From Paulownia fortunei (Eukaryota > Streptophyta > Magnoliopsida > Lamiales > Paulowniaceae), in assembly GCA_019321725.1 (NCBI GenBank), contig CM033106.1, positions 21,636,965-21,700,964 on the forward strand: a stretch of 64,000 nucleotides of DNA, written 5' to 3'. The position numbers were made by a program, and so were the translations under genes. The number at the start of each line of letters is the position of its first letter. Position 1 is the first letter of the stretch. Below, piece after piece: positions 3,617 to 54,094 of the stretch. Below the pieces are notes generated by a model, which saw only the letters and a list, made by a program, of their open reading frames with translations, searched no databases and was not told where the DNA came from.

Positions 3617-4875
3617 TGATGAGTGAAATTTATACTGATTAATTGAACACTATTTGCTTAACTTCTTGATTAGTTTTCGATATTTTTGTAAGTTTTATTA
3701 TCATTTTTAGTATTTATTTTGTAAATTTGAATATGAAAGAAGAATGTTACTTGAATGCACAAAAATCTACAGTCATCTTATATTTTTTCTTAAAAAATAA
3801 ATCGAACGATGAACAGTAGCGCCTAGGTGCTGCCGCTATTGGAAAATGGTGTTATTCTAGAATGTGCAGTGCTTAGGCTCTACCTGGCGGATAACTGAAG
3901 GCAAAATCATCATTTATCCCTCTTTAGGGCATCTCCCGTCAGATTTTGAAGATCCCAAAAGCCTCCAATTCAAATTTTGAGAGGGGAAGAGAGAGAGAGA
4001 AAAGAGAAAACAAGCCAAGAAAGAAGAAGGAAGAAGAGAAGAAGATGAGAGATTTTTTCCAAGAGTTGAGAAAAAAATATCTACAAGGGAAGAAACTCAT
4101 CCTCTTTCAAGTTTTATTTCATTTTCCTCTTTTTCTCATTAATTATTTTCATGGATATTATTAAGTTATCTTTTATTTTTACCATCGTGAACTAATTTAT
4201 TATTTTAGGGTTGTGATGTAATCTAATTATGATGATTTGAATATTTGTATCAATTCAATTCTTGATTTATTTTTTAAGTTGAGTTTTCTACATTGTTCTT
4301 AATGCTTTCAATTACTTGGCCACTAATTGAATGATTTGGTAATCATATTGACCTGGGAGGTGATATATGTGTCTAGTTCTATGTGTAGAAAACTATAAAT
4401 TATATTTAAGATAGGAATATACTTGCATGATTTGTGTAGTCTTGTTAAAGATCCATAGAACCTAATGAATTGTTGATTGTTGTAATTCACATAGGAATAT
4501 AGTGGGTTGATAATTGATGGTATTTTCGGTAGACCTTGGGACAGGCTAGTGAATAATTTTGGGATTCTCGACTATTACTTGAGAAATAAATTGAAATTGA
4601 GATGAATTATTCAATTCAGACTAATTAAAGTGAAATCATAACTATAGGTCTTTTAAGTTAGTGAATTTCATCTTCAAATATTTTTGATTATTAGTTTAGT
4701 TTAGTGAGATTTAGTTTATAATTATCAACACATTCTTCCATTTTTTCAAATAAAATTGGAGTTAATATAATTTCGGTACTTAATAATTCAATAGTCCTCG
4801 TGGGAGCGATACTTATTCATCACTTTATTACTTATTAACAATAACGTGCACTTGCATTCACAATTTTTTGCAATA
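3617..4875 (+). repeat. Athila-type 3' LTR (1259 bp)
   Basis: It starts TGATGAGTG after the purine tract and ends TGCAATA before the C1 gag. Its last 638 bases match window bases 1-641. Its first about 186 bases match the minus strand of 53283-53098 with about 11% differences by eye. A purine-rich stretch near 3980-4060 may belong to the R/U5 leader. Confidence 0.85.
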
Positions 4876-4880
4876 GCAGT
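4876..4880 (+). other. Right target-site duplication GCAGT of the Athila-type insertion
   Basis: GCAGT follows the LTR end and reads into copia gag (Ala-Val-Asn-Ala-Trp). The same pentamer flanks the start of the related LTR fragment on the minus strand at 53284-53288, again in the Glu-Ala-Val part of the copia gag. Confidence 0.65.
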
Positions 4881-7800
4881 CAATGCTTGGGAAACGTCGA
4901 TATCTTTTTATGAGCTTCATGAGAAACTTATCAACAAAGAAGCATTTATGCGTTTCTCCTCCACCTTGCCACTGTTCCTCCCAATCACCGCCAACGCCAC
5001 TACCACAAGCACAAAGAAACAATGGAGTCTATCTCAATCTTCATTTCTAAATGCATGGCTGCAAACTTATGCCCCTTGTGGTGATTGGTCTCCGGTGTCC
5101 GTATCTTGGCTACTATTAAACGTGTGGTGTTCAAGGCCATACTGCAAAAAAGTATCCTACATTTATCTTTACCACATTCGCAACATCTCAGGATCATCAC
5201 CCCTTGCCTCATCGTCCTTTAGCACTATTTTCTCCGGCCCCGTGGCAACCCCAAGCGCACTATGTTGGTGTCAACACCACCTACACTCCTACATGGCTCC
5301 TAGACACTGGGGCATCTCACCATGTCACCACCGACATGAGCAACCTATCTCTTTAAACTCCATATCATGGCACCAATAGCATTATGATTGGCTACGGCAC
5401 GGGTCTTCCAATCACCTACACCGGTTCCACTACCCTTCCCACTACCTCTTGTCCTTTTAAATTATCTAATGTTCTTTATGTACCTAGTATGAAAAAGAAT
5501 CTTATATCCATTTATCAATTTTGTTGCACTAATAATGCCTCTATTGAATTCTTACCAAATTCATTTCATGCAAAGGATCTTCGCACGGGGGTAATTCTTT
5601 TGAGGGGACCAACTAAAGATGGTGTTTATGAGTGGCTGATGCCTTCCTCCAAAGCATCATCTCAGTTAGTTGCTTTTCTAAGTGTCAAGACTACTCCGTC
5701 CAAGTGGCACTCTAGATTAGGTCATCCCGCATAAAGTGTATTTAAACATATTGTTTCTAATTTTTTGCGTCCGTTGTCAAGTACATTAGCTACAGTTTTT
5801 TCATGTGATGCATGTGACTGCAACAAAAGTCAAACTTCTATTCCTTGTATCTACTATTATTTCTTCCATCTACTTGAAGCGTTATTTATGATGTGTGGAC
5901 ATCCCCTAATTATTCTATTGATGGTTTTAAATACTATGTTATTGTTGATCACTTCACCAAATATATCTGGTATTATTCTTTTAAACAAAAATCCATGTAT
6001 ATGATGTCTTTGTTCACGTTAAATCTCTTATAGAAAAATAGTTTATACAATCCATGGTAACCCTCTACTTTAATAATGGAGAAGAATATCAAGCTCTCGA
6101 TAGATTCCTCTCCATAAATGGTGTATCCCATCTTACCATCCCACCACATACACTTGAACACAATGACCTTTCGGAATGACATCATTGTCACATTATTGAA
6201 ACATGTCATTCCCTCCTCACTCATGTATCTGTTCCACTCATTTTTTGGAATTATGCGTATGCCAGTGTCATCTATTTCATAAATCATCTACCTACCCCTA
6301 CCCTCCACATGTCCTCACTACATGAGAAGCTCTTTGAATTTTCCCCAAACTATTCCAAACTTCATGTATTCGGTTGTCTATGTTACCCATAGCTTTGTCC
6401 ATATTCATCTCACAAGCTTGATACTCAATCTGTTCTATGTGTCTTCTTAGGTTACTCCCTCACTCAAAGTGCCTATCTTTGCCTTGACCCAACCACCACC
6501 AAAATCTACACCTCTCGTTATGTCAAGTTTGTTGAATACATATTTCCATTCACTTCCCTCCAGAGTCATCTCAGTCATCTTGAGCCTAAAACCATCTCCA
6601 ATTGGCTCCCTCATGTCTCAATTGTTCCCACAACTATCAATGCACAGTCCAACACCCCGTGTGAGGCTCTTATCCAATAACAAGTACCGATTGACCGAAC
6701 ACCTCTATCCAAATAACCCAAACACCACCAGATCCTACCCAACTTCAATCCCAACCCAACTAGCTAATCAGACACCTCCAACAGATCAGCTAGATAACCC
6801 AACCAACCTAATACACCTAAATAACCCCAATCATATCAACCAAACCAAAAACACCCATATCATGACCACCCGAGCTAAAAATAATATTCATAAACCTATT
6901 TCAAAACTAAACTTAACTACCACCTTAACCCCCTCTACTGACTTTAAACCATCTATAGCCACTCAAGCCCTCAAAGATCCAAAATGGCATCGGGCTATGT
7001 CTGAAGAGTATGACTCACATGTTTGGAATGGCACATGGATGCTTGTTCCTGCCTCGTCTAGCACAAACCTTGTATAGTGTAGGTAGATTTTTCTTACTAA
7101 GCATCTTTCTAATAGTTCTATTAATAGGTACAAAGCACGCTTAGTGGTGAAAGGATTTTACCAATGCCCAGAAGTAGACTACCATAACACTTTTAGCTCG
7201 ATGATCAAGCACACCACCATGCAGCTCCTTGAGCGCCTTGCCATTAGTCTGGGTGGTGCTTATGTCAATTAGATGTCAACAATGCCTTTCTCTAATGACA
7301 TCTCATTGAGGCCATATATATGGCACTACTACCAGGCTTCATTGATTGCGATAACCTAATCAAGTGTGCAAACTTAGAAAGGTCATTTATGGTCTCAAAC
7401 AAGCACACGTGCTTGGTATCATGAGTTGTGTTAGTTCCTTGTTGTCTTCGGCTTCACCAACTCCCATGTCCATACATCTTTCTTTATCCTTAACACAAGT
7501 GGTAATCTTATTTTTCTTCTTGTCTATGTTGATGACATTATTATTACAGGCGACAATGATACTTTAGTCTAAAGGTTGATCTCTCTACTCGCCTAATAGT
7601 TCTCACTTAAGGATCTTGTACTCCTATCTTTCTTTCTTGGTATGGAGATCATTCCCATTTTCTCTGGGTTGTTGTTATCACAGAAACGGTATATCGAAGA
7701 TTTATGTGCTTAGACTAATATGACAAGTGCAAAACTAATAGCAACACCACTTTCTACCGAGCCTACGCTTACTCTATACTCTGGTACTGCCTTGACAGAC

Positions 7801-8430
7801 CCTACTGAGTTTTGTACTATTATTGGCAGTCTTCAATACCTATGTCTCACACAACTAGGCATCATCTTTACAGTGAATAATACTAAACCTTAGAATGCAG
7901 TAAAGAGATTCTATGTTACTTATGTGGCACCATTGATCATGATTTTGTTCTCTTTCATGATGTCTCTCTATCTCTTCATGCATTTTTAGATGCTAATTGG
8001 GCAGGCAACAAGGATGATTGCACCTCCACAAGTGCTTATATTGTGCATCTTGGACGCAACCCCATCTCGTGGTTCTCCAAGAAATAACATACAATTGCGT
8101 GGTCTTCTACTGAGGGTGAGTATAGGTCTGTCGTTGCCGCTGTTGTTGAGATTCGATAGGTATGCTCACTTCTTACTGAGCTTGATGTCCATGTTTCTGC
8201 CTCTCTAATCATCTATTGTGACAACACTGGAGCAAATCATCTTTGTTCTAATCCGATATTTTACTCACGCATGAAGCATGTTGCAATAGACTACTATTAC
8301 ATTAGTGCTCTTTATATCTCCCATATTTCCTTTGATGATCAACTAGTGAGTGCTCTTACCAAACCACTCCCCCAGACTCATTTTCATCTACTGAAGACCA
8401 AGATTGTAATCTCCAACAAAGCTCCATCTT
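4881..8430 (+). pseudogene. Copia element C1 gag-pol, right part, broken by stops and frameshifts
   Basis: The order is that of a Ty1/copia polyprotein. Gag C-terminal part: 4881-5000 (ETSISFYELHEKL). Degenerate CCHC knuckle: about 5110-5160 (CGVQGHTAKKY, last Cys now Tyr). Aspartic protease: DTGASHH near 5303. Pre-integrase: WHSRLGHPA near 5706. Integrase: about 5765-6440, with Cys pair CDAC and VDHFTKYIW. Reverse transcriptase: about 6960-7700, with YVDDIIITGD near 7520. RNase H: about 7980-8340, ending in a KHVAIDYYY-type motif and TKPLP. Several frame changes and internal stops mean no functional product. The N-terminal half is missing here because the Athila-type element interrupts gag; a fitting N-terminal half lies on the minus strand at 53289-53870. 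Confidence 0.85.
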
Positions 8431-8439
8431 GAGGGGGAA
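8431..8439 (+). other. Polypurine tract of copia C1
   Basis: GAGGGGGAA directly precedes the 3' LTR and follows the end of the RNase H frame, as expected for a copia element. Confidence 0.75.
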
Positions 8440-8649
8440 TTTTAGAGAAAATATTGTACATATTTTGTTAGTTTCTTATTTCTTTGATTTTGTATTTATT
8501 TGATTGATTATAGGATCAATCTAGATTTAGAATCTTTTGATTGATTTAAATTAGGATTAAAAACCTACGTAATTTGAATTATGTACTCTTGTATATATAT
8601 CAACTTCATCAATGGAAAAAATTAATCCAATAGTATTCTAATTTCTATA
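8440..8649 (+). repeat. Copia C1 3' LTR (about 210 bp)
   Basis: It starts TTTTAGAGAAAATATTG after the purine tract and ends TTTCTATA. It aligns over its length, with indels, to the minus strand of 54089-53885 (205 bp), which is followed there by a tRNA-Met-type primer binding site. The canonical TG and CA ends are mutated in both copies. The next five bases are TAACC. Confidence 0.8.
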
Positions 8650-8654
8650 TAACC
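8650..8654 (+). other. Right target-site duplication TAACC of copia C1
   Basis: TAACC follows the C1 3' LTR. The same pentamer, read on the minus strand, precedes the LTR at 54090-54094. The match supports both LTRs belonging to one insertion. Confidence 0.65.
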
Positions 8655-9551: not shown

Positions 9552-9556
9552 TAAAT
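9552..9556 (+). other. Left target-site duplication TAAAT of copia C3
   Basis: TAAAT directly before the 5' LTR; identical to 19070-19074 directly after the 3' LTR. Confidence 0.85.
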
Positions 9557-11795
9557 TATTAGAGTAGAATGCCTAGCGCCCTAATTAGATTGGATGTATT
9601 GTTCTCATTTTAGTTATAAAACAATCTTATTAGAATCATATTAATATAAAAGGCGCTTTCTTTATCTTCTGTCTTGCAATTTCTTTTTGCATATTAGATA
9701 AGGTCCTTAAACCAAATATATCTATGGGGCATGACAGCGTATATAATAGCGATCATGGAATATGTCTCTAAAGCTTTGGTCTTAAATAAATTTTGAGTCA
9801 AGGATTTTTGGGGATGGGATAATAAATAGCCCAATAGGCTCGCGCATACGATACATGCTCACATGAGGAGAATATCTCATTCCATAGACATTAGCATAGT
9901 AACGCACGTGTATCTATGTGGGTGCTTGTTTAGAGAACAAGTACACTGAACTAACCTACCAGAAATTCTTGGAAAATTCATTTGTCGAATTAAAAATCTC
10001 TATGTTACGATAGTGCATGACTAGTCCTTTGAATTGAGGCACCATAGTAATCTTATACGTGTCATGTCTTACTTTAATGTATTCTATGATTATATGATAA
10101 TCATAAATGGATTACGTTGGGTATTACATATATAAGTATGGAGATTAATGAGTGATCAACAAAAAATCTGTCACTTGTCTAGTAGAACAAATGAATATTC
10201 TATGTTTTCATAGTTCATAACTCTGAAATTCTTGGCCAAAGTATGATGAATGCCAGAATAAGGTTTCAGACGATTCGTCTAGAGTCACTTGAACTTTAAA
10301 TGGAATCACTGTTATAGAGTCAATTAGGGTTTTGACTTTTATCCATAGTTTAGACTCAATCGAGAGATTAGTTTATGGAAGGACCTTACGTGCATGTTAT
10401 TCGTAATTGTAATATGACCACTTGCTATTTCACCTAAGACTAGTTTGTCATGATTACTTGTTAGGTGTTTTCATAGATAAAGTGGGTATTCTTGGTTTTA
10501 AAGAGTTAATTATAAGTGAATTAATTAATTGGATTAAATAATGGGAATAATTATTATTCATAAGTTGCAAATATTGCAATCCTACTACTAGCTTAGTAGT
10601 GAACCTAAAGAGTCACATATAATTTGGAATAAATAATCTCTATTCTAAAATTAATCCAAAGAGTTGGATATAATTAATTAATTAGATTAATTAATTAAAG
10701 ATTAAATTAATTCAAATTAATTGAGTTAATTATCTAATTAAATAATAGAATCCTATTTTGAGTGAATTAATTAATTGATTGGATTAATTAATTAAACTTG
10801 GGCTAATTAATTAATTGAATTAATTAATGTGCTTGCTAAAGTCCAAGCTCAGGTTAAAAATGGTTCATTAATAGAAGAATTAAATTAAATAGAAAAAGTA
10901 GTTTTTCTTATTTAAATTGATATAAGATATCAATATTGAATTTATAGGATAGGTTCAATGTATTTGTATATCAAGATTGAATTTATGGGATAGATTCAAT
11001 GTATATGAAGGAGAGTAGGGTCAAAAATTGATGGCCAATTAGAGGCCACATTTTCGGCCATTAAAGATAAAATGAAGAGAGGGTTTTGGTATGATGTGAA
11101 TTTGGTTTGTTAGGAAAGTTAGACTTTCCAAACAACCAAATTAACATGTAGGGCTAATATTAGATTTTACCTAATTTTTGTAACCACCATATAAAATAAA
11201 TACTGAAGACAAAATTCCATAATTCCTCAACTCCAAAAATTGGCCACAAGCAAGAAAGAAAGAAAAATGTTATCTTCTTATCTTTTCTCATTTCCTTGGT
11301 TATTCAAATTTTCTAGTGCATTGTTCTTCTTCCACGAGTTGTATTAAGAATAATTAATTAAATATTACAAGTTGGATTAAGAATAATTAATAAAAAATAT
11401 TTAATCTTTGATTCCATCGGTTGGATTAAAGATTAGTGTCCACTCTCTTTTTAGGCTTGAAAAAGAAAACAAAGAACACTAGCAAGTTCTTTGCTTTTGG
11501 TTATTCTAGTCCAAGGTATGGACTTCTTTAGAAGGAGGACACATGGACTCCTTGGTGAGAGATTTTCTACATTCCTGCAATTGATTGCCTTGAGCCTTAC
11601 ATTGAATCGAAGAATTAGAAAAGGGTAACAAATTATATCGTCATTAAATTTATATTCTATTTATGGACTTGTTAGTAATGCCGATCATTAGAATTGCTAT
11701 GAAACTGGGGGTAATTCTATAAATGTTATTGCATCTTTTATTTTAAAAAATTTAATTTTCACTTCATTTACCCCTAGGTTATAGAGAACCCAATA
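9557..11795 (+). repeat. C3 5' LTR (2239 bp)
   Basis: It starts TATTAGAGTAGAATG (3' copy TGTTAGAG) and ends ACCCAATA (3' copy ACCCAACA). It contains an AT-rich stretch of short TTAATTAA-type repeats at about 10520-10830 and two copies of a 41-bp unit at 10926-11007. Confidence 0.92.
10926..11007 (+). repeat. Two tandem copies of a 41-bp unit in the C3 5' LTR
   Basis: Units 10926-10966 and 10967-11007 start GATATCAATATTGAA / TATATCAAGATTGAA. The 3' LTR has three copies at 18193-18315. Confidence 0.85.
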
Positions 11796-11796
11796 G

Positions 11797-11810
11797 TGGT
11801 ATCAGAGCCA
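11797..11810 (+). other. C3 primer binding site, initiator tRNA-Met type
   Basis: TGGTATCAGAGCCA lies one base after the 5' LTR and matches the plant initiator tRNA-Met complement used by most copia elements. Confidence 0.9.
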
Positions 11811-14180
11811 TGGTTCGCATTATTAACAGTTGGTGTGATTTATTTTGAATGTTTATTTGATCAACATGGCTTTGTTGTTTTTGTATTTTCAGAGATCAAA
11901 CACAATTCATTTTATTGAATTACATGTAAAATGTTTTAAATTTGTTAAATTATTATACTGCAGCACATGATGCGTTTGGACCTATAGCCCGCGCATTGAG
12001 CTTGCGGGGCTATGCCCTAAAATAGCGACGGCATGGGCGACTATCGCCACAGCTTGTTATTGTATGCAGTGTGTGCTCAACCAACCTACTGCGTGTAAGG
12101 GTTGATTCTACCCAGCAGTGCATGTGCGACTAGGCGGCAGTTTGTCATTTGGTTCCACAATGTGCTGTCGGGCGATCCATTTACATATGATTTTGATAAA
12201 TATTCTATTTAATTAATTTTAAATTAATTATTAATTTTAAAAAGCTGAAAAATTATTTTTCATAAAATAGAAGATTGTGTCCAAGTCTTGAAAATGCATT
12301 GTTTAACAACTTGGTATATTTACTTGCTTTAAAATTCATGTGATGAAAGTTTATTGCATATTTTATTTAGGGATGATTATGGGCCTGTGACCAATGTGAT
12401 TGGATGTTTTAATTATCTTTGGGTATTTAGGGCCAGTGAGCCTCTTATTCTATTTTTGTATTACATTTAATTTTTGCAAAGAGAGTAGAATAGAAAGTGA
12501 ATTTTGATTTTAATTTTTTTCAATGGATGACGTTTGAAGGCTAAAGGCCCAGGCTTATATAAGTTATTAAATGCAAATATAATAGAATAGGAGATTCAAG
12601 GCAAATGTATGGGTACAAAAATAAAATATAATAGAATAGTTTTTTATATTTTTAACCTCAAATTGACCTTGCCCCATTTTTGGCTCAAATGGGTCACGTA
12701 GGATGGCCATGATCATCCCATCGCTTTTTGCGTAAGATGCATGTTAAATATTATTTAAGGTTCTTACATGCGCACATATGATGATAAGCATTAAATAACC
12801 CACTTAGTAATGTAATTGATGAGGTATTGGATAAAATCAAACCCTACTTAATTTACGAAATTAAGTAAAGAATTTTCTATAATTCGATTTTAAACAAAAA
12901 TGTACAAGTTAGGTAGGACTTATCATTCTATGCCTATCATCAAAGGTAGAGACATGACGACCACTACCGTACTTAATCACTCGCTATAAGTCGTGGTCTT
13001 ATGTAGGAAAACTGTGATCTCTACCAAGAATAGAGATGTTCGAGGATAGACTCGTCATTATGTTGGCCATGAGTCATGGGACATCTTGATGCTCTATCTA
13101 CACAAACATTTGATGGGTGTTATTTGACACTTAGCACCATATGTGCTCATAATATTACGGTATATGGGAAGAAGTAAGACAAAACAAACTTGAGGGTTGT
13201 ATAGTGATACAATCGTTAAAAAGTTGATCACCAATATAAATATTTCATGAGCTCATAAAATTAGGGTGTGAAATATTTTCGTTGGGCCTCAAGCCCACTA
13301 GGAAATTCAATTTTCCGAAACTCCCATTAGGGGTGATGGAGTTCGAATAAAATAGTGGGTGATATTTAGTATTAAAGACCTTATATTAAATGAATATGAT
13401 TTTTCCATAATTTATTTATTTTTCTGCCTTGTTTAGGATAATTGTTATCACTTATAATTCCACTAAAAACTATTCCTGACACCAATGAACATCACTAAAC
13501 TCTAATTCTATTTGGATTACTCTTGAAATTTGAGAATGGTTCTCAAATTTGAGAGGTTAAGAAATGTGCAAAAGAAGAGTTTCTATCAATAGTTGTAGAA
13601 ACAACTCTCACAAGAATTGTGGAAGTATATCCTATTACACATTCTACAAAGAGTTGTAGAGAAACCTTCTAAAATTGTTGAAGAATGACCTCCTATAAAG
13701 AGTTATAAGAGATTCTAGCTAGCAAAGCTAGATGATTAATCCGCATAAGATTGCTTCATGTCACTACTACGGGATAATGGGGCATTGGAAGAGAGAGATC
13801 CTAAGTATTGACTTGCTCAATGATTTAGAAATATATTCTAAATAGAATTTTGAATTAGAAAGAGTTATGCTTCAAGTTTAAATTTTGTGGAATTAGATAG
13901 CCGACATTGAAAATTCTTCTTAAGTATTAAATACTGGATATTGATCTCATCTCTGCAAAGAGTTACAAGAGTTGACAAGAGGAATACATCAACGTTGATG
14001 ATTCTTCTTGGGTATAAGATACCGGATATGATCCCATCTTTTCAAAGAGTTGCAAAGAATGAGATTAAGAGGATTATCTTTCAACTTTGGAGTAAAGAAA
14101 ATGTTGCTTCATTAGATAAAGGTGCAGTCCACTTAACTCTAGATCTTTAGATGGAATTAGGGTATTTTTAATTATTTCTC
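11811..14180 (+). other. C3 leader / eroded gag region, 2.4 kb
   Basis: Gag would be expected here but I find no gag motif or zinc knuckle in any frame. The stretch has a locally GC-rich segment at about 11965-12180. At about 13600-14060 there are repeated motifs of the type AAAGAGTTGTAAGAG and an imperfect duplication of about 70-90 bp (about 13900-13970 and 13988-14058). Either gag has decayed beyond recognition or the element never encoded it. Confidence 0.5.
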
Positions 14181-16712
14181 TTTAGTGCTAAAAGATATTA
14201 AGAGCATAATCTTTGTTGGACAGAGAAAGTTTGGTTGAAAGATCGAATGTGGAAATATTCCATGGTTCTTGATGTTGTTACATTGACAAATGATTAATAC
14301 AATCGCAAAATTCCATGTCAGTTATTCAACAAAATAAAAGAAAATTAGATAATCCTAGTTCCCAACTTTTATGGCATGCTAAATTAGGTCACATCTCTGA
14401 GAAGAGAATTCATAGTTGGCCCAATTGCTCAATCTTTCGAAAGAGCAATGAATGCCAACATGTGAGTCATGTCTCAAAAGGAAGATGGTCAAATCACCAT
14501 TTGTTGGACAAGTGGAGCAAGCAAACGATTTATTAGATTTGATCAATTCGATTATATATGGGTCTACTAAGTGTTAGTGCTCGTAGGAACTATCAATACT
14601 TTATAATCTTTACTGAAATGATTATTCTAAGTATGGTTATGACTACCTTATAAGGTACAAATCTGAAACCTTTGAAAAGTTTAAAAATTCAGATGCGAAG
14701 TGAAGAAATAGACTGGGCTAAATATCAAGGCTTTTCGATCAGATCAAGGAGATGAGTAATTGAGCATAGAGTTTCTTGATTATCTAAGAGAGAATGAGTG
14801 CTTCTCCACAACTTAATGGAGTTGTGGAATGTAGGAATCGAACCTTGTTGGATATGGTTCGATTCGTGATGAGTTTCACTACATTACATCTTTCATTCTA
14901 TGAAGCAACAAGTGGGAGATAAGTTAGATATGAGATCCATCTTATACATGTTCATGGGTTATTCAAATGAGTCTATTGGATACTATTTTTATGACACCTC
15001 GGAACAAAAGGTGTTTGTTTCAAGGAATGTCACCTTCCTTGAACAAGAATTTCTATTAGATAGAAGTGGAAAAATCGTGAAACTTGAAAAAGTTCATGAA
15101 CTATAGAACATCCCAAATGTTGTAGTTGATAAAAAAAAACCCGCTAATATTAGGCCCTCTGATACACAACCTCTTCGAAAATACGAAATGGTCTCTAGGG
15201 TACCTAAAAGGTACAGCCTTTTGTTAGAAAACAAAGAAGAGAGACTCCCCTTAGATAATGATCCAAGAAGCTATGGAAAGGCGATGTCTGACAATGCCTC
15301 GAAGAAGTGGCAAGAAGCAATCCAAGATGGACTCTATGTACTCCAATAAGGTATGAACCTTGGTGGACCCACCACAGGGAGTTGTTCTCATTTGATGCAA
15401 ATGGGTCTACAAGAAAGCTTGGAGTAGATGGAAATATAGCAACCTATAAAGTACGTCTGGTTGCAAAACATTATACTAAGAAATAAGAAATTGATTATGA
15501 AGAAACCTTTTTACCAGTGGAGATGCTTAAATCCATTCGGATTCTGCTGGCCATATCTGTATATTATGACTATGAGATATGAAAAATGGATGTGAAAACC
15601 ACATTCCTTAATGGAAATATTAATGAAGAGATCTACATAAAGCAACCAAAAGGCTTCATATCCATCGGGAGAGAACAAAAGGTTTACAGGCCATAGAGAT
15701 CCATTTATGGACTCAAACACGCTTCGAGGAGTTGTAACATTCTATTTTATGAAACATATAAAATGTTTGATTTTCATAAGAACTTGGATGAACCATGTAT
15801 CTACAAAAAGATTAATAGGAGCACAGTTGCATTTGTTGTACTCTTCGTTGATGACATCCTACTCATTGAGAATGATGTGGGATGTTGCAGCTAATGAGGA
15901 CTTGGTTGTCTAAATAGTTTTCCATGAAGGACTTGAGAGATGCATCTTTTATCCAATAGATAAAGATCTAAAGAGATAGATCTAGAAGGATGATCGAACT
16001 ATCCTAGTCCATGTACATAGACAAAGTGCTAAAAAGGTTTAGCATGGAGGAATCCAAATAAGGATTTCTGCCTATGAGTCATGGGGTTTCCCTCTTTAAG
16101 GCTGTGTCCCAAAACACCTGAAGAGAGAGAAAAGATGACTCGCATACCTTATCCGTCTGCAATAGGGAGCATACTATATGCAATGTTGTGTACAAGGCCT
16201 GATATTGCACATGATCTAACTGTTATGAGCAGATATCAATCTAATCCAAGGGAAGAACACTAGAAAGCCATTCAGATGATCCTTAAATATTTGAGAAGGA
16301 CTAAGGATATCTTTTTTATATACGACAATGGAGAACTAAAACTTGAATGATATACAGACTTTAGTTTTCAATCCGATATAGATGACTCGAATTCCATATC
16401 TGGATATATATTCACCTTGAATAGTGGTGCAGTCAGTTGAAAAAGTCCCAAGCAAGAAATAATTTCAAACTCTACCACCGAAACTGTATATATTATTGCA
16501 TCAGATGCAACAAAATAAGTTATTTGGATAAGAAACTTTGTTCAAGGGTTTTGGATATAGCAAGCAAAGGAGCCAATATCTCATCACAGATCCAAGCATA
16601 TAATGAGATGTATTACTTGAGAAGAGAGATCATTGATAGAGGCAACGTCATTATGGATCGAGTTGCTTCAGCAGAAAATGTAGCAGACCTATTAACTAAG
16701 CCCTTAGCATAG
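14181..16712 (+). pseudogene. C3 copia pol (pre-integrase, integrase, reverse transcriptase, RNase H), broken
   Basis: Motifs run in copia order. Pre-integrase: WHAKLGHISEKRI near 14372. Integrase: DYSKYGYDYL near 14620 and FRSDQGDE near 14735, followed by an apparent deletion before KLDMRSILYMFMGYS at 14920. A linker covers 15100-15300. Reverse transcriptase: about 15300-15960, with KMDVKT and the catalytic FVDDILL near 15844. RNase H and tail: about 16130-16712, with YPSAIGSILYAM and ending ADLLTKPLA. Frame changes and stops are frequent. The integrase Glu region is partly lost. This would have encoded the replication and integration enzymes of the element. Confidence 0.88.
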
Positions 16713-16773
16713 AAGGTTTTCGATGAACAACTTGAGAAGATGGGCCTAAGATGCATGGGAATTGGAGCTAGGG

Positions 16774-16785
16774 CAAGTGGGAGAT
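16774..16785 (+). other. C3 polypurine tract
   Basis: AAGTGGGAGAT directly before TGTTAGAG, the start of the 3' LTR. Confidence 0.8.
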
Positions 16786-19069
16786 TGTTAGAGTAGAATG
16801 TCGGGCGCCCCAATTAGGTTGGGTGTATTGTACTCCTTTCTATTGTAAAAGGATCTTATTGGGAATCATATTAATATAAAAGGTACTTTCTATATCTTAT
16901 GCCTTGCATTTTCTTTCTGCACATTAAATAAAGTCCTTAGACCTAATATAGCTACGGGGCATGGTTGAACATATGATAGCGATCATAGAATATACCTCTA
17001 AGATTTTGGTCTTAAATAAGTTTTAAGTTAAGAATATTTTGAGATGGGACAACAAATAGACCAATAGACTCGGGCATATAATGCATGCTCGCATGAGCAG
17101 AATGTCTCATTCCATAAGCATTAGCGTAGTAATGCAAGTGCATGTATGCTGGTTCTTGTTTAGAGAACAAATGCATTGAACTGACCTACCATAAATTCTT
17201 AATTGAAAAATTCATTTGTCGAATTAAGAATCTCTATGTTACGATAGTGCGTGAGTAGTCCCTTAACTTGAGGCACCATAGTAATCTTGTGCGTGTCATG
17301 TCTTATTTTGATGTATTATCTGATTGTATGATAATCACAAATAGATTACGTTCGGTATTTCATCCACATATATGAAAGTTAATGAGTGACCAACAAAGGA
17401 TCCATCACTTGTCTAGTAGAATAAGTGAATCTCCTATGTTTTCATAATTTGTAATTCTGAAATCCTTGGCCAAGGTATGATAAATGTCCAAATAAGGTTT
17501 CTGATGATTTGTCTAAAGTCACAGGAATTTTAAATGGAATCACAGTTATTAAGTCAATTAGGGTTTCGACTTTTATCCATACCCTGGACTCAATTGTGAG
17601 ATTAGTTTACAAAAGGACCTTATATGCATGGTATTCGTAATTATAATACGATCACTTACTATTTCACCTAAGACTAGTTTGTCATGATTACTTGCTAAGT
17701 ATTTTCATAGATAGTAAGGTTCTTGGTTTTAAAGAGTTAATTCCAATTGAATTAATTAATCAAAATAATTATTATTCATAAATTGCAATTGTTGCAAACC
17801 CATTATTAACTTAGTAGTGAACGTAAAGGGTCACACACAATTTGAAATGAATAATCTCTAGTCTAAAATTAATCCAAAGAGTTGGATATAATTAATTAAT
17901 TGGATTAATTAATTAAGGGTTAAATTAATTCAAATTAGTTGAGTTAATTATTTAATTAAATAATAGAATTATTTAATTGAACCCAATAAGATTGGGAATC
18001 CTATTTGGAATGAATTAATTAATCGATTGGATCAATTAAATGAACTTGGGCTAATTATTTAATTGTATTAATTAATATGCTTGCTGAGTCTAAGTCCAAC
18101 TTGAAAATGGCTCATTAGTATAAACCCACTTGGAATATTAGAAGAATTGAATTAAATATGAAAAATATTTTTTCTTATTTAAATTGATATAAGATATCAA
18201 GATTGAATTCATAGGATAGTTTCAATGTATTTGGATATCAAGATTGAATTTTTGGGATATGTTCAATATATTTGGATATCAAGATTGAATTTAAGGGATA
18301 GGTTCAATGTATCTGGACGAGAGAGGGGACGAAAATTGATGGTTAATTAGAGGCCATATTTTTGGCAATTTAAGATAGAAGGAGTAGGGGATTTTGATAT
18401 GATATGGATTTGGTTTGTTAGGAAAGTTAGACTTTCCAAACAACCAAATTAACATGTGGGCTAATATTATGTTTGACTTAATTTTTGTAGCTACTTTATA
18501 AAATAGTTATTGAAGACAAAATTCCATAATTTCTCTACTCCAAAAATCGGCCACAAGCAAGAAAGAAAGGAAAACATTTTCTTCTTCTCTCTTCTCTTTT
18601 CCTTGGTTCTTCAAATTTCATAGTGCATTGTTCTTCTACCTTAAGTTGGATTAAGAATAATTAATAAAAACATTTAATCTTTGATTCCACCGGTTGGATT
18701 AAAGATTAGTGTTCAATCATTTTTTAGGCTTGAATAAGTAAACAAAGAGCACTAGCAAGTTCTTTGCTTTTAGTTATTCTAGTCCAAGGTGTGTGCCTTC
18801 TTTAGAGGGAGGACAGTGGACTCCTCAGTGAAAGATTTGCTACAATCCAGCAATTGATTGCCTCGAGCCTTATATTGAATCGAAGAATCAGAATGGGTAA
18901 TGAATTACATCATCATTAAATTTGCATTCTATTTATTGAACTATTAATAACGTTGATCGTTAGAATCGCTACGAAATCGGGGGTAATTCAATAAATGTTA
19001 TTGTATCTTTTATTGTAAAAAATTTAATTTTCGTTGCATTTACCCCCATAGGTTATAGAGAACCCAACA
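16786..19069 (+). repeat. C3 3' LTR (2284 bp)
   Basis: It starts TGTTAGAGTAGAATG and ends ACCCAACA. About 45 bp longer than the 5' LTR, mostly explained by a third copy of the 41-bp unit (18193-18233, 18234-18274, 18275-18315). Confidence 0.92.
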
Positions 19070-26966: not shown

Positions 26967-26971
26967 AATAT
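26967..26971 (+). other. Left target-site duplication AATAT of the Tat-type gypsy
   Basis: AATAT directly before the LTR; identical to 36141-36145. Confidence 0.8.
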
Positions 26972-27637: not shown

Positions 27638-27639
27638 AA

Positions 27640-27658
27640 TGGCGCCGTCTGTGGGGAA
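27640..27658 (+). other. Primer binding site of the Tat-type gypsy
   Basis: TGGCGCCGTCTGTGGGGA, two bases after the LTR end. Confidence 0.88.
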
Positions 27659-29800: not shown

Positions 29801-30011
29801 GAGGTAGAAGGAGATCAATATTTAGCTCAGAAATGTTATGTGGAAGCTATAAAGAGAGCGAATAAAAATAAATAATGAATATAGATGCTCCTAGATGAGG
29901 GGATCGAGATGGAAAGAAGGCTAGGTAGGGCAAGGAGACAAGCCTGAACCCCATGTACAGCCTGATGAAAAGCTGATATCAGTTGAACTAGTTCCTAGTG
30001 AACCTCAAAAA

Positions 30012-31195: not shown

Positions 31196-31196
31196 A

Positions 31197-32118: not shown

Positions 32119-34205
32119 CAGGATAGACCTGACCATGGGTCGGGTCCTGTTGTGAATGGGTCAAAAGCAATTAACCACAGGTCCGACCCACAAACCCATG
32201 AATCGCCGAGTTAGCCCAGCAGGCCTGACCCTTGGAACCGCCGAGCCAACCTGGCAGTTCTAAGCAAAAAAAATGAAAAAATGAAAAAAGAAAACTAGTC
32301 GTTGCCAAGTCTAAACGGTCATTTGACCGTTTGTTTTTTCTTTTTTTGTTTTTTCTTTTTAATTTTCCTCCTATAAATACCCCTCCACTCTTCATTTTTT
32401 CCACACTTCAACTCACAAATCTCAATTATCTAATTCTCAACTCTCAATTCTCTAATTCTCACTCTCAATTATTCATTCTCAATTCTATATTATTTTAATT
32501 GTTTCGTTAAATCTTTTTTCATATTTCATTTATTTCATCTTCAATTATTTATTATTCAATTCTATATACTAAATTTTCATCATTTATCAAAAAATGGTCG
32601 GTTCAAGCAATAAAGGTAAGGGAAAAATGCCCACAACCGACGAGCAATCAAGGCTCAACATTGATTCTGAAGTTGAGTTAAGTGATGAAGAGCAAACTCA
32701 CTTGTATACTACTCAAAAAATAATAAGTGATGCTCATACTCGATCTACTCCATCTCTCAAATCCTCCATTTTTACAAAATATATTGATAAAGTGATACTT
32801 TCAAATGGAGAGATGCGAGCAAAATATAAATATTATTCGCAATCTTACAAATTTCAATCCAGTTGCGGTTATGGATCATTAAAAAAACGTAGAGAAGAAG
32901 TATCGAGTAGAATTCGGCATTGATCGTACCCAAACTCAAATGCCGTCATTCGCATCTTCTGGTGCTGGTGGAGGTAACAATCTTTCTTTATTTAAATATA
33001 ATGATGTTAGATGTAGAGAAAATTTAACTAGATTTATTTCTGTTGAACATCTTAGTTTTAGTTTTGCAAATAAATTTTTTTTAATGAATTAATTCAAACA
33101 ACATATAATTCGGCAGCTAAAGGTATTTCATGAACCACACTAACACACCATGTAAAAAAATATATAATAAAACTAAAAAAGAGTTAAAAGAATTATTAAA
33201 TAATATAAATAATAAAAAAATTATATAGTGATATTTGGAGTGATTATTGACAAATATATTCATATATGGGTATTACGTGTTATTGGATTGATGATTCTTA
33301 GATACTTCAAAAAATATTACTTGTATTTAAAGTTTTTGATAGTCCACACACAGCGGCAAATATTTCACAAATTATATTTTTAATATTAGAATAATATAAT
33401 TTAGTTAATAATTTTTTTTCAATATCATTTGACGATATTACAGCTAATAATGCTAGTATTGGTGATCTTAAAGTTGTATGTGAACCATCAATTAGTGGTA
33501 ATTTTTTTATATTAGATGTATATGTTATATTTTAAATTTATGTGTACAAGATGGCTTAAAATTTTAGATAATCAACTTAAACTAATTAGACAAGTATTTT
33601 CTTATTTATAGACACATCCACATATTAATAAACAATGATTTAGATTTTGTAAGGTTAACGGTGTGAGGCCTAAAAAATTTACACGGGATGTTCCAACCCG
33701 TTTGAATTCAACATATATATTATTAGAAGAATCTATCGACTATAAAGATTTATTATGTCAATATTTTTTACAAATTATTTCTACTCCTTTTCATTTATAT
33801 CCACATCATTGGATAGTATGTGAAAAAAATTATAATATTTTAAAAATATTTAATGATATTATTTTACAATTATCTAGTGTTTATTCCCCAACTTCTCATT
33901 TAATATTATTAAATTGTTGTAATATTGCATCAATTTTACATAAAAATATAACTCCCAAGATAAAAATTTAGTAAATTATACTTTATCAATGCAGTTGAAA
34001 TGGGAAAAATAGTTTTTTGAAATTCTAGATATTAATTTAATTAATGTTGTTTTTGATCCTAAACTTAAATTAGATGGTTTACAAGACTTGCTATTAATTT
34101 ATTACAATACTGTAAAATGTAATAAAAATGATTATACTTTAGATATTAATAATATTATATTTAAAATTAGAACACTTTTAAATGAAACAAGTATTTAGAT
34201 TTCCA
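32119..34205 (+). mobile_element. hAT transposon remnant inside the gypsy integrase
   Basis: The left end CAGGATAGACCTGACC starts right after the integrase frame and is followed by GGGTCGGG-type subterminal repeats in both orientations (32130-32240). A transposase follows. I could not find a matching inverted end or an 8-bp target duplication near 34200, so the right end is lost or rearranged. The promoter region has TATAAATACCCC near 32372. Confidence 0.7.
32594..34200 (+). pseudogene. hAT (Ac/Tam3-like) transposase, broken
   Basis: The first open part (32594-32921) starts MVGSSNKGKGKMP and holds a BED zinc finger, but the CKYC pair reads YKYY: KYKYYSQSYKFQSSCGYGSL. Later parts appear in shifting frames: NNASIGDLKVVCEPS near 33445, the well-preserved RPKKFTRDVPTRLNSTYILL at 33663 (usual form PTRWNSTY), and a C-terminal piece LQDLLLIYYNTVKC near 34077. 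Many stops interrupt the middle. The family cuts and pastes DNA; this copy cannot. Confidence 0.85.
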
Positions 34206-35570
34206 ATTTTTGATCGAGGGTGGAGCTGTAGCTAAAAATTTGGCTTGACTTCGGGAGGTTATGTAAAATTGACCAGGGCCCGAGGTCCTGACTTGGAACA
34301 TAAATGGAACAGATCAGTTGTTGGCTCAGCCCCATGTTGAGCAACTACCATGGCAAAGCTAGCCATCTAACGAAAGGCATTTGGGATGAACTGGTTCAAA
34401 GGAAATTTAAATTTAGTAAATACATCAACGAAGAGTTGAGGAATAGAAAAACATAAACCAATCTCTAACTGGTCTACAAAAAATGCTAGGTAACCTAAGA
34501 GAGGTTGATCTGGTCTTTGATATAGGCTAGGTTCTATGAGTGTGTGATCACTTGGGATGCCAAAGTCAAAACATAGGTCTTCAGGGCTTAACGAGACATT
34601 TTAGAGGGAAGAAGCTCCGGTAAGGATGAAGCACCAGGCAAAGTAGCTATGGTAACTCCATCTATAGGAAGTGCTATTGGGATAGGAGAACTAGGTCTAG
34701 AAAGAGGTCCAAAGGTTCAGCTAGGGCTGAGGAAGTACTAGGGCGAACCTCTACTAGATGGTAAGTTTGTCACTCGACTCATCCATGAGGTTTAAAGGTT
34801 GCCGAATTGGACGTTCAACCCTAAAATAAGGTTGGGAGGACTCCACAGAAGTGGGCAGTCTTCCCACTTGTTCAGAAGGTGAACTAGGAGAGTTATCCCT
34901 AGATTTCATGGAGATGGAAGAGGAAGTCTGGAGGCCGCCAATGGAACTAATGGATCAGCATCATCTGAATAGAACATGATAAAAAATTCAGAGGATTGTA
35001 AAAAATGGTATTAAATATATAGCAAAAGATAAAGGGAGAAAACTTCAGGAATGTGTTGATTCAACTACAGAATTAAAAAGAAAGGTATAGACTCATACCC
35101 ATTTAGCAAGAAGAAAAGATTGAAGCAATTAAAGCAAGTAGAGAAAAAAACCGAAGGTAGCTGGAGACAGGCGTCTGAAGGTTCCTGAAGAAGGCTAGGG
35201 TTTTTTCTTTCTATAAAAGTTTCAAGTGCAGAAAGGATGAAAGTGGGGAAGACAAGTTCTTTTATAAATCCTCAAAGAAAGACGAAGGGGTACTTTCCGA
35301 TGCTCCACGTGTAAGGGTTAGATCAGCCCATTAATGAATGAGTACGATTGGGTGTTGGATGATGACCACGTTTATAGATAGATCAAGTCTGTCAGTTACA
35401 GTTATCTTTTTAAATTCAAATTTAGCACGGGTTTTCATGCATCATGATGAGCGCGAATTATGGAGTATGCCACATTTAATAATAGGTAGTGGAGCTTATT
35501 GATGCCAACCTATTCCAGTTCGGATTCATGTAATAATTACCTACTCTATCCGATTAGTCCCTACTCAAAT
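34206..35570 (+). other. 3' region of the Tat-type gypsy, no ORF
   Basis: Begins with the eroded integrase C-terminus (GPEVLTWN near 34275) and runs to the purine tract. No open frame of note. Locally richer in GC than the flanks. Confidence 0.5.
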
Positions 35571-35588
35571 AGAGTAGGGGGAATTAAT
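35571..35588 (+). other. Polypurine tract of the Tat-type gypsy
   Basis: AGAGTAGGGGGAATTAAT directly precedes TGATGTGG, the start of the 3' LTR. Confidence 0.8.
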
Positions 35589-36140
35589 TGATGTGGCATA
35601 AAATTGTTCCATTTTTAATGGGCCTACTTGGGCCAAGTCTAAGTTGGGTTCACGAGTAATATCAAGTCTTATAGGCCTTGGTGGTTACTAATTTATGATA
35701 AGCTGGTTAGTCTGTTAGGAGAAAATAGATATTTATGGCCGAGCTGGACAAGGGCAGACATGTTCGAAGGACTCGAAAATATTTGAGTTGGTACATCTGA
35801 GCTAATATGTATAAGCTAGTTCATCCAAGCTGATATGTCTGAACTAGTTCATCCGAGCTAACATGCTAGGACCGGAATTGAGCATGAATAGGTAGTTGGT
35901 ATTTTCAAACATAAGAAAATATTGTTAAATTAGAATACTACGAAGGAAATAAGAGTATTTTATGTTAATGAGCAATATTTTAGAAAATCAGCCTTATCTT
36001 CGCCTGAAAATTGGCTTTATCTTTAGAAGGTAATAAAATTATTTGTTTATTCTATCAATTCGGCACAAGGTTCATATAGATCAAGGTTCAATCATTCAAT
36101 TGAAGTTTCTTGATTGTTGCTGGAATTTTCGGCATCATCA
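35589..36140 (+). repeat. Tat-type 3' LTR, internally deleted
   Basis: It starts TGATGTGGCATAAAATTG and ends GGCATCATCA. It has three copies of the roughly 27-bp motif (about 35795-35870) against two in the 5' LTR. It lacks about 140 bp present in the 5' LTR between GGTAATA and CAATTCGGCAC, including the TATAAAAGG box. AATAT follows at 36141-36145. Confidence 0.87.
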
Positions 36141-36145
36141 AATAT
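36141..36145 (+). other. Right target-site duplication AATAT of the Tat-type gypsy
   Basis: Identical to 26967-26971. Confidence 0.8.
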
Positions 36146-44665: not shown

Positions 44666-44669
44666 TAAT

Positions 44670-45062: not shown

Positions 45063-45064
45063 TC

Positions 45065-49500: not shown

Positions 49501-49827
49501 GTTTCTCTGAAACCTGCACATAAGAATATAAAACTTGTTAATCTAATTTTTTATGTTGATTTCCCATTTTATTCCTAAAACACAAAAATGATTTAATTGG
49601 GAGTTCTTGCAATAATTTCAAAGTAAAAATAATTATATAAATCTTAATTAATTGTACACTTTTAAATGTTCATCATACAAAAACCAACTTATTACTAATC
49701 TCTAATAATTGTAGCGTAATGAAATGCAAAACAAATAAAAGAGAACATGGCATAATGATCAAAATTTTAAAAAAAACCTGCAAAATAGTCTAACAATCAC
49801 AAACAATTATTTATCAGTAATCACAGA
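46581..49827. other. AT-rich DNA without recognisable gene
   Basis: Short open frames occur (for example 46953-47165, 47739-47984, 48394-48615) but none shows a known motif, splice context or codon bias. No LTR ends found. I see nothing else to call. Confidence 0.45.
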
Positions 49828-52800
49828 TGTAATACCCAAGTCTCACACTACTCACTTGCCCAATATAATTCATGCTCTACATGCTACTTATATGTTAATT
49901 TGCATTAACATCTACATCGCATCTTTTATAGCATTCTTAATCATTGCACCTCCAATGCTATTACTTGATGTTAGTGATTGATATCCTACAACCTAATTAA
50001 GTGATTCTATATTTAGATAAGATAAAGAATAGATTGATCAATATAATAGATATTCATAGGTTGTATGTTATAATTTTAGAAGTGTTAAAGGTGTCACTAG
50101 TAAGCTTATATGATTCGATTCGATTTGATCGAGGTGTTTTAAGGGTATACATCCATAGATTAACATACTTGGGATATCGAACATGATATAATGTGATTTA
50201 AGTATCATAATACAAGGTTCATATGTGCATGTGATTTTAGAATGAAAACTAGACAATCATTTAAGAATCGAATGTCGATCGGTTTGGAGATCGAATGAAC
50301 GATTAAGAAATTAGGGCATAATGTATTATCCGATCATATGGAAATTAAAGTAGGTTGTACATAGATAAAAAAGTGCTGATAAACACTAGATTAGGACTGT
50401 ATAAGGTGTGAAAAATATCAGATTTGAACCACAACTTGACACCTCAACCTTGCCACCTCAAGCTTCGCCACCTCAAGCTTCCACCTCAACCTTTCTTCAT
50501 TTCTACCCTTGAGCCACGACCAAAAACTATTTTTTGAGCTATTTCACTTCCAAAACCTTCATATTGAATGTTAGAAATTGCTCTCAAGTAATTCCAAGTA
50601 AAGAAAAAAAAGTGAAGGAAGCAAAGGGAAGTAAGGAGGAGCAAGTTGAATCTAAAATCTGTGCATATGTGAGCTTTAATTCATGTTTTTTATTTAAGTT
50701 CTTGAATTGTTTGAGGGTTTATAATTTTTAAAGCTTCTATTATTGATTATAATCATGTTAGGATATTATTTGTGGTCTTTTAGTTTACAAAAGAAGGATT
50801 TTTAGTTGCAAAATCACAATAAAAATCACTAGGGACAGAAATTGTATACTTGCTGATTTTTTATATTTATGCTTTATATATGTATAATAACTTGATTAAA
50901 ACCTGTGTATTTCACCATATAGTATTTATATATGAGTCTAGGTGATGTATGTAAGTTTAGAGAGGTTATAAATTGTAATATAGTGTGATAATTAAAGAGG
51001 TGCTCAAAACTGTCTTCTTTGAAATTCAGATTCTGTCTTATGTGAATAGTGTTGGTTTTACATCAATTAATCGATTAGTTTTGGTAGTACTTTAACCTGG
51101 TTGTCTTTTTATATGTTTTATCTAAGTATGGTGAAAATTTGGGAGTGATTGAATGTACTTAAGGGTGCCAAAATCATTAATGTCATGAAGTGTACAAAAC
51201 TGTCACGGTAGGAAAACAATCTCTTTCAGTATTTTGTAAAGAGAGCTGAACTTGGGAAACTATATCCATGATTTTTAGCAATTATATGATATGGTTACAT
51301 TTATATACATGTTATCTAAGTGTGGTAAAAATTTGGGAGTGATTAGATATATTTAGGGATGTCAAAATTATCATGCAACTAAATTGGACAGCAAGTAAAT
51401 ATGAAAATGTGAATCTATCTCATTTGATAACTTAGCATATTTCAACCTAGACATGTTGTTATTGAGTGTTAACAATTAGGTACATGATATTAGAGTTATA
51501 ATAATTTAATTATATGATGTTTACATGTATCTAAGATGAGAAATTAAGGTATTGGAGGGACTAGATTGGGTTCTAGTTTGTAAAACCTAGATAGCTTGGT
51601 GTTTAAGGTCTTAGTATGATATTTTATGCTTTCAACTTGCCAAATTGGGAATGGTGATTGATGTTGGGTAATATTACAAGCTATTTTACATCTAAAATTG
51701 GAGGGGAACAATAAACAAATCTAGACTAAGTCACCAACCAAGTGAAAGGTAAGTAAAGATCCATTTGCAACTACAATACAAGATCATAATATGTCTTGAA
51801 GCATGTATACCTAATGTGTTGATAATATTAAATTTGACTAAGAGTCTTATGGTTCTTGAAACATGTTGAGAGAAAGATGACTTGCATTTTATATTGAACA
51901 TACAATTCATGAGCATTAACATGTGCATGCACGGCATAGGAGTATAGTGGAGGTTCTTGCATGCACGATATGATTTGAGACATGATTTTCAGAAAGAAAA
52001 TATTTTGGTTAGCCACTACTAGTATACCGAGGCATGTGAGGCATGCTTATATGATATTTTTGGGCGCCATGAGTGTTACTTCTCGAAATATCACAGGGGT
52101 TGACAGAGGGTGTGCCTCTGGTGGTCACGAGAGGGTGGACCACTTGACTGTACCCTTATTGACTCCGCCAGTAGGAAGACTTCTGGAGGATCATAGGGGA
52201 AGACAGGGGGTGGACCACTGGTGATCCTAGGAGATGGCCCTTGGACTGAGTCATTTGTTTATGGACATGTGATTATTGATATTATTCAGAGTTCTATCTG
52301 GTACATAGTAGGTGGGCCAAGGGCCCAATAAATGAAGTCATTTTTAATAAAAATTCTTTGATTTATGAGTACTCAATTTGACACATTTATAGCATCATAT
52401 CTGAAAGTTGAGTTGCATGAGATTTTATATCATACTCTTGTCATGCATAGTTTTTACTTATTGAGCGTTAGCTCATGTAGTTCATGCATTGTAGGTGAAC
52501 ATGGTGAGACTTGAGACCTCTGGTTTACTGGCTAGCAGTGGAGCTCCTATAGGCTTTCAAATATCAATGTACTTGGATGACGAATTGTTTGGCTATTTTG
52601 TGGGCTGTATTTTTTATTTTATAGTTATTGTATTATATTAGTGACTTTATCATGTATATCACTTTCAAAACTCCTTTTGCGATAGAGTGTTTGGGTTTGT
52701 GATAGTTTTGATAGACTTGGTTAATGTTTAATAACTACCTATGTATATACAATGTTACAGGATATGAAAGCACTTTACTTTTATCAATGTTTTATTGAAC

Positions 52801-52856
52801 TGAGTAAAAAAAAAGTTATACACATACATACGTGCACATATTATGTTGCACAAGTT

Positions 52857-52914
<58 letters not shown>

Positions 52915-52932
52915 TGTTGGGAGGTTGTGACA
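49828..52932 (+). repeat. Chromovirus-type gypsy LTR (about 3.1 kb)
   Basis: Starts TGTAATACCCAAGTC and ends GGTTGTGACA, with the primer site five bases later. The layout resembles Del/Tekay-like LTRs: CACCTCAACC/CACCTCAAGC repeats near 50440-50500, a duplicated GACAGAGGGTG / GACAGGGGGTG segment at 52100-52230, and GAGCGTTAGCTCATG near 52463. The left end is chosen from the TGTAAT start and is not confirmed by a second copy. Confidence 0.65.
52859..52904. repeat. (TA)n microsatellite
   Basis: About 22 uninterrupted TA units, 30 bases before the LTR end. Confidence 0.95.
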
Positions 52933-52937
52933 AAGAG

Positions 52938-52954
52938 TGGTATCAGAGCCCAGG
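52938..52954 (+). other. Primer binding site, tRNA-Met type
   Basis: TGGTATCAGAGCCCAGG, five bases after the LTR end. Confidence 0.85.
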
Positions 52955-53051: not shown

Positions 53052-53097
53052 ATGGTGAGAACAAGAGGTGAAAGTAGTAGTGGAGCCAGAATGATTT
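53052..53097 (+). pseudogene. Gypsy gag N-terminus, cut after about 14 codons
   Basis: ATG opens MVRTRGESSSGARM, which has the look of a chromoviral gag start. The frame then runs directly into minus-strand Athila-type LTR sequence. The rest of gag and all of pol are missing. The cut coincides with the proposed inversion breakpoint, and the missing continuation is predicted to lie left of the window. Confidence 0.55.
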
Positions 53098-53283
53098 TTT
53101 TTCTTTCTAAGAAAAAATATAAGATTAATGTATATTTTTGTACATTCAAGTAACATTCTTCCTTCATCTTCAAATTTGCAAAATAAATAATAAAAATGAT
53201 AATAAAACTTATAAAAATCTAAAAAACTAATCAAAAAGTTAAGCAAATAATATTCAATTAATGGGTATAAATTCCACTTATCA
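53098..53283 (-). repeat. First about 186 bp of an Athila-type LTR, minus strand
   Basis: Read on the minus strand it starts TGATAAGTGGAATTTATA and aligns without large gaps to 3617-3802 of the Athila 3' LTR, about 11% different by eye. It breaks off at 53098 against gypsy gag. It is preceded on the minus strand by GCAGT (53284-53288). Confidence 0.82.
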
Positions 53284-53288
53284 ACTGC
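53284..53288 (-). other. Target-site pentamer GCAGT next to the Athila-type LTR
   Basis: On the minus strand the copia gag reads GTGGAAGCAGT and then the LTR start TGATAAG. The same pentamer follows the Athila 3' LTR at 4876-4880. Confidence 0.65.
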
Positions 53289-53870
53289 TTCCACCACCAA
53301 TTGAAATTCTGGACTTAGGCCATGAAGAATTTTGTATATTATATCCTCATCATCAAGAGGCTTACTGAGTAAAGCAAATTCATCAGCACGAGACTTGATG
53401 AATTGCATGCATTGTGTAATGCTTTTCAAACCTTTGACATGATGCTTAAGCCTCTCTTTAATATGTTTGATGTGGCCCGGAGTGGATTTTGCATAGTTAC
53501 TAGCAAGGGTGGTCTAGATTTGGCTTGATGTGCTGGTGGTGGAGAGAAAGGGTTGGATGTATGGAGAAATAGCGCCTAGAAGAGCACTAAAGATGGGTCA
53601 ATCTTCCATGTATTGTAAGCAGGATTTGGTGAGATGGTGGTACCTGTGGTGATAGTAGCAGTGGGACATGAGCATTAATTTGAAGCTTCTAAGTGATGTA
53701 AGCTTCAAAGTGATGTAATTGGTGGTGGTGAGTTTGGTGATATTGGTTAAATTGATGGTAACAAGAGGTCGATTAGGTTCCTGCGTGTTTCGGATAATAT
53801 TATGTGGTGTTTCAGTGGTGGAGTCTTGGGAAGCTATATTGGGAATGAAATTGAGAGAGATAGTTGATCA
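53289..53870 (-). pseudogene. Copia gag, N-terminal half, broken
   Basis: On the minus strand, after the primer site, broken frames read as a copia gag: NRPLVTINLTNITKLTTTNY near the start, then, after frame changes, ITQCMQFIKSRADEFALL and LDDEDIIYKILHGLSPEFQL ending VVEAV at the LTR. The typical continuation of this family, NAWETSISFYELHEKL, is found at 4879 onward directly after the Athila 3' LTR. The two halves make one gag with no overlap beyond the pentamer. Confidence 0.82.
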
Positions 53871-53871
53871 A

Positions 53872-53884
53872 GACTCTAATACCA
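53872..53884 (-). other. Copia primer binding site, tRNA-Met type
   Basis: TGGTATTAGAGTC on the minus strand, directly after the LTR end. Confidence 0.85.
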
Positions 53885-54089
53885 TATATAAATTGGAATA
53901 CTAATGACTTGATCTATATATATACAAGAATACAAAATTCAAATTAGGTAGGTTCCTAATCCTAATCCTAATCAATCAAAAGATTCTAAATCTAGATAGA
54001 TTTCTAAATCAAGCTATAGAAACAATCAAATAATTACAAAATAAAAGAAATAAGAAACTAACTATTTATATACAATATTTTCTCTAATA
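53885..54089 (-). repeat. Copia C1 5' LTR (about 205 bp), minus strand
   Basis: On the minus strand it starts TATTAGAGAAAATATTG and ends TTTATATA. It aligns with 8440-8649 over its whole length, with substitutions and a few indels (about 13 and 18 bases). Confidence 0.8.
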
Positions 54090-54094
54090 GGTTA
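54090..54094 (-). other. Left target-site duplication TAACC of copia C1
   Basis: TAACC on the minus strand directly before the LTR; identical to 8650-8654. Confidence 0.65.

Follow-up and report, generated by a model that had tools for sequence, protein, structure and literature searches.

A very probable 53.5-kb inversion in Paulownia fortunei, read from three retrotransposons split between opposite strands

The window considered here, a stretch of 64,000 nucleotides from C2 of the 509-Mb genome of Paulownia fortunei (GenBank assembly GCA_019321725.1, contig CM033106.1), carries parts of three retrotransposons: a copia element, an Athila-type element that sits in the copia gag, and a gypsy element ~53 kb away. 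Each is divided into parts that now lie ~50 kb apart on opposite strands. An earlier note, made from the letters of the window alone, had attributed the splitting of the first two elements to an inversion. This interpretation is supported by the sequence directly to the left of the window, referred to as L030 (9.8 kb plus the first 200 window bases, the overlap being identical), and by related elements elsewhere in the genome. The features are listed in Table 1.

Three split elements

The copia element consists, as had been read before, of a minus-strand part with one long terminal repeat (LTR), a primer-binding site (PBS) and the N-terminal part of gag, and a plus-strand part with the rest of gag, pol and the other LTR. 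In the self-comparison of the window the LTRs match at 83% identity (8442-8600 against 54087-53916 of the minus strand), with a Kimura two-parameter (K2P) divergence of 0.145, and the flanking target duplication TAACC agrees across the split. Pfam recognizes Retrotran_gag_2 (PF14223) in the minus-strand part (profile positions 42-144 of 172, E 0.00046, 20.1 bits, which is under the Pfam cut-off of 27) and Pol_BBD, gag_pre-integrs, SH3 and RVT_2 in the plus-strand half; it does not recognize the C part of gag as gag, and this part gave 0 matches among 27 candidates from protein databases.

The two parts of gag belong together. Four sequences elsewhere in the genome match the 220-bp gag piece at 69-80% identity, and the two best of them are contiguous across the site of the Athila-type element, with the N and C pieces adjacent and overlapping only by the target duplication; L047 aligns the N piece at 1-220 and the C piece at 223-506 without interruption. 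Because both relatives carry the pieces on adjacent stretches, the gag halves are placed at the same codon, where the earlier note had joined them.

The inserted element, which we take to be of Athila type after the label given in that note, has an internal region without a recognized pol domain. As this region is only ~3 kb long and the Pfam scan finds no plus-strand pol domain in it, the element looks non-autonomous. Its target duplication, GCAGT, likewise agrees across the split. The 3' LTR lies at 3617-4875, and the 5' LTR is represented by two pieces: the minus-strand fragment of ~190 bp (53293-53104 against 3607-3796, 88%) and the part at the left end of the window (1-634 against 4238-4867, 92%), which continues into L030. 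This left part differs from the 3' LTR at 82 of 1049 positions (7.8%; K2P 0.083) and groups with it against seven relatives with 100% bootstrap support. The LTR divergences of the copia element and of this left part match the nesting order, the older copia having the higher value.

A tract of ~350 bp in the Athila-type 5' LTR (window -68 to ~281) is near-identical to ~4170-4520, with 9 of 350 positions differing, compared with ~10% (73 of 699) in the remaining LTR (p = 2e-6); the tract is likely a product of gene conversion.

The gypsy element was cut as well, and its parts are complementary. The window holds the 5' LTR, the primer site and the start of gag on the plus strand; L030 holds on its minus strand, counting from the junction, the rest of gag, protease, reverse transcriptase, RNase H, an integrase zinc-binding domain and the 3' LTR. 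The two LTRs have a K2P divergence of 0.062, and the element is bounded by ACAGA, which adds a third target duplication that agrees across the split and is not mentioned in the earlier note. Of the 21 stretches sampled at first, 3 contain copies of this LTR family. The element is presumably Tekay-like. Ty3/gypsy elements of the Tekay/Del kind have long LTRs, a primer site of the initiator-methionine type, the domain order gag-protease-reverse transcriptase-RNase H-integrase, and a chromodomain; the cut element shows the LTRs, the primer site and the domains, and Pfam finds no chromodomain in it.

At 52860-52914, within the gypsy 5' LTR and ~180 bp short of the right breakpoint, there is a self-complementary 55-bp run of AT repeats, and the 3' LTR has a similar one. 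Such runs can be fragile; the break is outside the run.

Table 1. Features of the window and of the sequence to its left. Positions refer to the window unless C2 or L030 is given.
Feature	Position	Strand	Basis or remark
Whole window	C2:21636965-21700964		genome placement
Left inversion breakpoint	~C2:21636543/21636544 (~L030 9380, 421 bp left of base 1)		L030 alignment
Cut gypsy 3' LTR	~L030 4944-1830	-	93.5% identical to window 49825-52933
Athila-type 5' LTR, right part	1-642 (inner end approximate)	+	self-comparison, L030; extends 421 bp left (L030 9380-9800), cut there
Athila-type internal region, ~3 kb	643-3616	+	Pfam scan
Athila-type 3' LTR	3617-4875	+	self-comparison, end alignment
GCAGT, right-hand copy	4876-4880	+	end alignment
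Copia gag (rest) and pol, degenerate	4881-8439	+	Pfam, genomic relatives
Copia 3' LTR	8440-8649	+	self-comparison, end alignment
TAACC, one copy	8650-8654	+	end alignment
ACAGA, 5' copy	49823-49827	+	partner at L030 1830-1826 (-)
Cut gypsy 5' LTR	49828-52932	+	LTR family matches, L030 alignment
Cut gypsy primer site, TGGTATCAGAG	52938-52948	+	
Gypsy gag, first 40 bp (start 53052)	53052-53091	+	ends at right breakpoint; resumes at ~L030 9377 (-)
Right inversion breakpoint	53091/53092 (C2:21690055/21690056)		gypsy relatives
Athila-type 5' LTR, first ~190 bp	53092-53283 (inner end ~53092)	-	self-comparison, LTR relatives
GCAGT, left-hand copy	53284-53288 (read 53288-53284)	-	end alignment
Copia gag, N-terminal part, degenerate	53289-53863	-	Pfam, genomic relatives
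PBS-like TGGTATTAGAG	53884-53874	-	just inside copia 5' LTR
Copia 5' LTR	53885-54089	-	self-comparison, end alignment
TAACC, other copy	54090-54094 (read 54094-54090)	-	end alignment
Further copia element	9555-19067	+	LTRs 9555-11793 / 16784-19067 (80.5% identical), RVT_2; inside inverted segment
Further gypsy element	26970-36143	+	LTRs 26970-27640 / 35587-36143 (pieces 81 and 87%), gag, weak RVT_1; inside inverted segment

Breakpoints and the case for an inversion

The earlier note had predicted that homology to the Athila-type LTR would end ~435 bp to the left of base 1 and be joined there to the minus-strand continuation of the cut gypsy gag. In L030 the homology to window 3810-4437 starts at position 9382, with none further left, so that the LTR ends 14 bp from the estimate, and the gypsy gag continues from the junction on the expected strand. 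The observation named beforehand as contrary to an inversion, a complete Athila-type 5' LTR with copia gag at the left, does not occur in the 9.8 kb of left flank. The same stretch bears on the explanation that the locus contains two separate or duplicated copies of the copia with its Athila-type insertion, broken independently. Such copies would carry the same target duplications, and a sister relationship of the ~190-bp LTR fragment to the 3' LTR is not clear from the fragment alone; however, the left flank lacks both the N part of copia gag and the start of the LTR, no other sequence in the genome matches the copia gag stretch closely (80% at best), and duplication leaves unexplained why these two junctions also split the gypsy element. 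This explanation is extremely unlikely.

At the right, the existence of a junction stands, but its position moves from 53097/53098 to 53091/53092 because bases up to 53091 match the gypsy family. The cuts thus lie ~190 bp into the Athila-type 5' LTR and 40 bp into the gypsy gag. What was lost there can be read from gypsy relatives (n = 11, L032-L042, from 12 loci given among 40 scored of 698 candidates, the twelfth being the cut element itself): all 11 are contiguous at the cut and carry 14-21 bp that both junctions lack, the range arising because ~5 bases at the left junction (ACACC) can be assigned to either side. On the LTR side, six relatives place the break in a variable A-rich stretch in which a few bases are ambiguous, and by our reading of these sequences ~10 bp or less would have been lost. 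A staggered-break duplication of a few bases (AATGAT) at both ends had been suspected from the junctions alone; the 11 gypsy relatives show loss, not duplication, and this candidate was rejected.

Self-comparison and comparison with L030 reveal neither paired repeats nor extended homology at the breakpoints. It is extremely unlikely that homologous recombination between inverted repeats caused the inversion. This could be suspected from the inverted LTR pairs that the segment now has on either side, of which the gypsy pair is 3.1 kb long and 93.5% identical, but the pairs result from the event; one cut is in an Athila-type LTR and the other in a gypsy gag, which have no similarity in the comparisons, and bases are missing from the junctions. 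A more complex event that mimics a simple inversion, by several breaks or by replication template switching, has in its favor the ACACC that fits either side and the ambiguity of the A-rich LTR side; it is exceedingly improbable given that the gypsy relatives show no inserted or inverted duplicated stretch at the junctions, the LTR side being ambiguous by those few bases, and that two junctions alone explain all three split elements.

An error of assembly or scaffolding, in which the segment was flipped and the living chromosome is uninverted, had been named as the alternative in the earlier note and deserves somewhat more weight in a repeat-rich genome, where 2 of the 21 stretches first sampled each contain 100 N. 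Such an error would be expected to leave a gap or a long shared repeat. Instead, neither the window nor L030 contains an N, the junction sequences have no mutual similarity, and, whereas flipping between contig ends would cost no bases, 14-21 bp present in all 11 gypsy relatives are gone here. With gapless junctions and a few lost bases, misassembly is thus very unlikely.

The segment is reverse-joined at both ends with reciprocal breakpoints, and the sequences split by them, those of the gypsy, the copia and the Athila-type LTR, complete each other. From three elements and three target duplications (TAACC, GCAGT and ACAGA; the chance of three such 5-mer matches is ~1e-8 at the local composition) it follows that all were cut by one segment of ~53,512 bp. 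A two-break chromosomal inversion of C2:21636544-21690055, with a few bases ambiguous, is very probably what separated them.

Several points weigh against this conclusion. The tree does not resolve the 190-bp LTR fragment as the sister of its own 3' LTR; the distance of L024 is 0.099 to the fragment and 0.094 to the 3' LTR, compared with 0.121 between fragment and 3' LTR. The fragment differs from the 3' LTR by 12.1% (K2P 0.133), above the 7.8% of the left part (p = 0.06); relative to the adjoining stretch its divergence is not clearly higher (23 of 190 against 34 of 350, p = 0.38). The proposed inversion is known here from the sequence of one assembly, in which the uninverted order is not seen: no further copy of the flank to the right of the copia is among the matches listed. 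For 54095-54600, the window itself is the sole full match among 40 listed of 59 candidates, and the other 39 cover 54395-54600 only, at 68-83% identity.

Mechanism, age and relation to known inversions

The observed arrangement would result if the chromosome suffered two double-strand breaks in the germ line, with 14-21 bp lost from the gypsy and up to ~10 bp from the LTR, and the reversed segment was rejoined by end joining without repeats. This course fits because the breakpoints have no paired repeats, the losses are small and there is no inverted duplication. The inversion is younger than the insertion of the gypsy element, whose LTR divergence thus gives an upper bound on its age. It is a break-repair scar and implies no function; as a rearrangement it is of an ordinary kind, with unusually good documentation.

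Among the types of inversion described in PMC7584159, "cut-and-paste" inversions in Drosophila arise by breakage and non-homologous end joining, and recombination between inverted repeats is described as another class. The present case resembles the former in its two breaks in non-homologous sequence without duplication of the ends; unlike the Drosophila cases, it lost a few bases and is read from a single genome by means of nested transposable elements and their target duplications, without an uninverted relative. With the inverted-repeat class (PMC7584159) it shares inverted LTR copies on both sides of the segment, but the breakpoints lie outside the paired repeats, and the LTR pairs are consequence rather than cause. 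The inversion made these pairs, so recombination between them could turn the 53-kb block round once more and its orientation could vary within the species, although this is unlikely.

The usual way to find inversions is to compare genomes. One genome is enough here for the event, the location of its breakpoints to within a few bases, the type of repair and the age bound, because both cuts fell within transposable elements that have target duplications. Looking for elements divided between strands whose target duplications match could reveal inversions in any repeat-rich assembly without a second genome, and the same search could flag assembly flips. No claim is made that this approach is unpublished. 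REANNOTATE combines the pieces of nested elements into a single model and marks possible rearrangements; in contrast to the analysis given here, as described it assembles colinear pieces, makes no check of target duplications and leaves better detection of inversions for the future (PMC2672092).

Other content of the locus

Apart from the two further elements in Table 1, the inverted segment had been thought to contain an RPA-like gene, which is not confirmed. At a Pfam E-value threshold of 0.001 there is no RPA domain on the plus strand at 9.5-18.5, 18.9-27.5, 27.5-36.5 or 36.1-45 kb or on the minus strand at 36.1-45, 45-54.2 or 55-64 kb, nor at E 1 on the plus strand at 37-40 kb; the scans leave out 45-64 kb of the plus strand and 1-36 kb of the minus strand. 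No confirmed gene is known to be moved or affected by the inversion.

Outside the segment, a plant mobile domain (PF10536) occurs in two frames at 61766-62319 of the minus strand, and L030 has a 179-bp tandem duplication at 926-1281 (98.9% identical). Just to the right of the inversion lies a minus-strand copia remnant (~55172-59223) with Pol_BBD, SH3 and RVT_2. The 225 bp at 56086-56310 match their own reverse complement at 78% and are possibly a foldback element.

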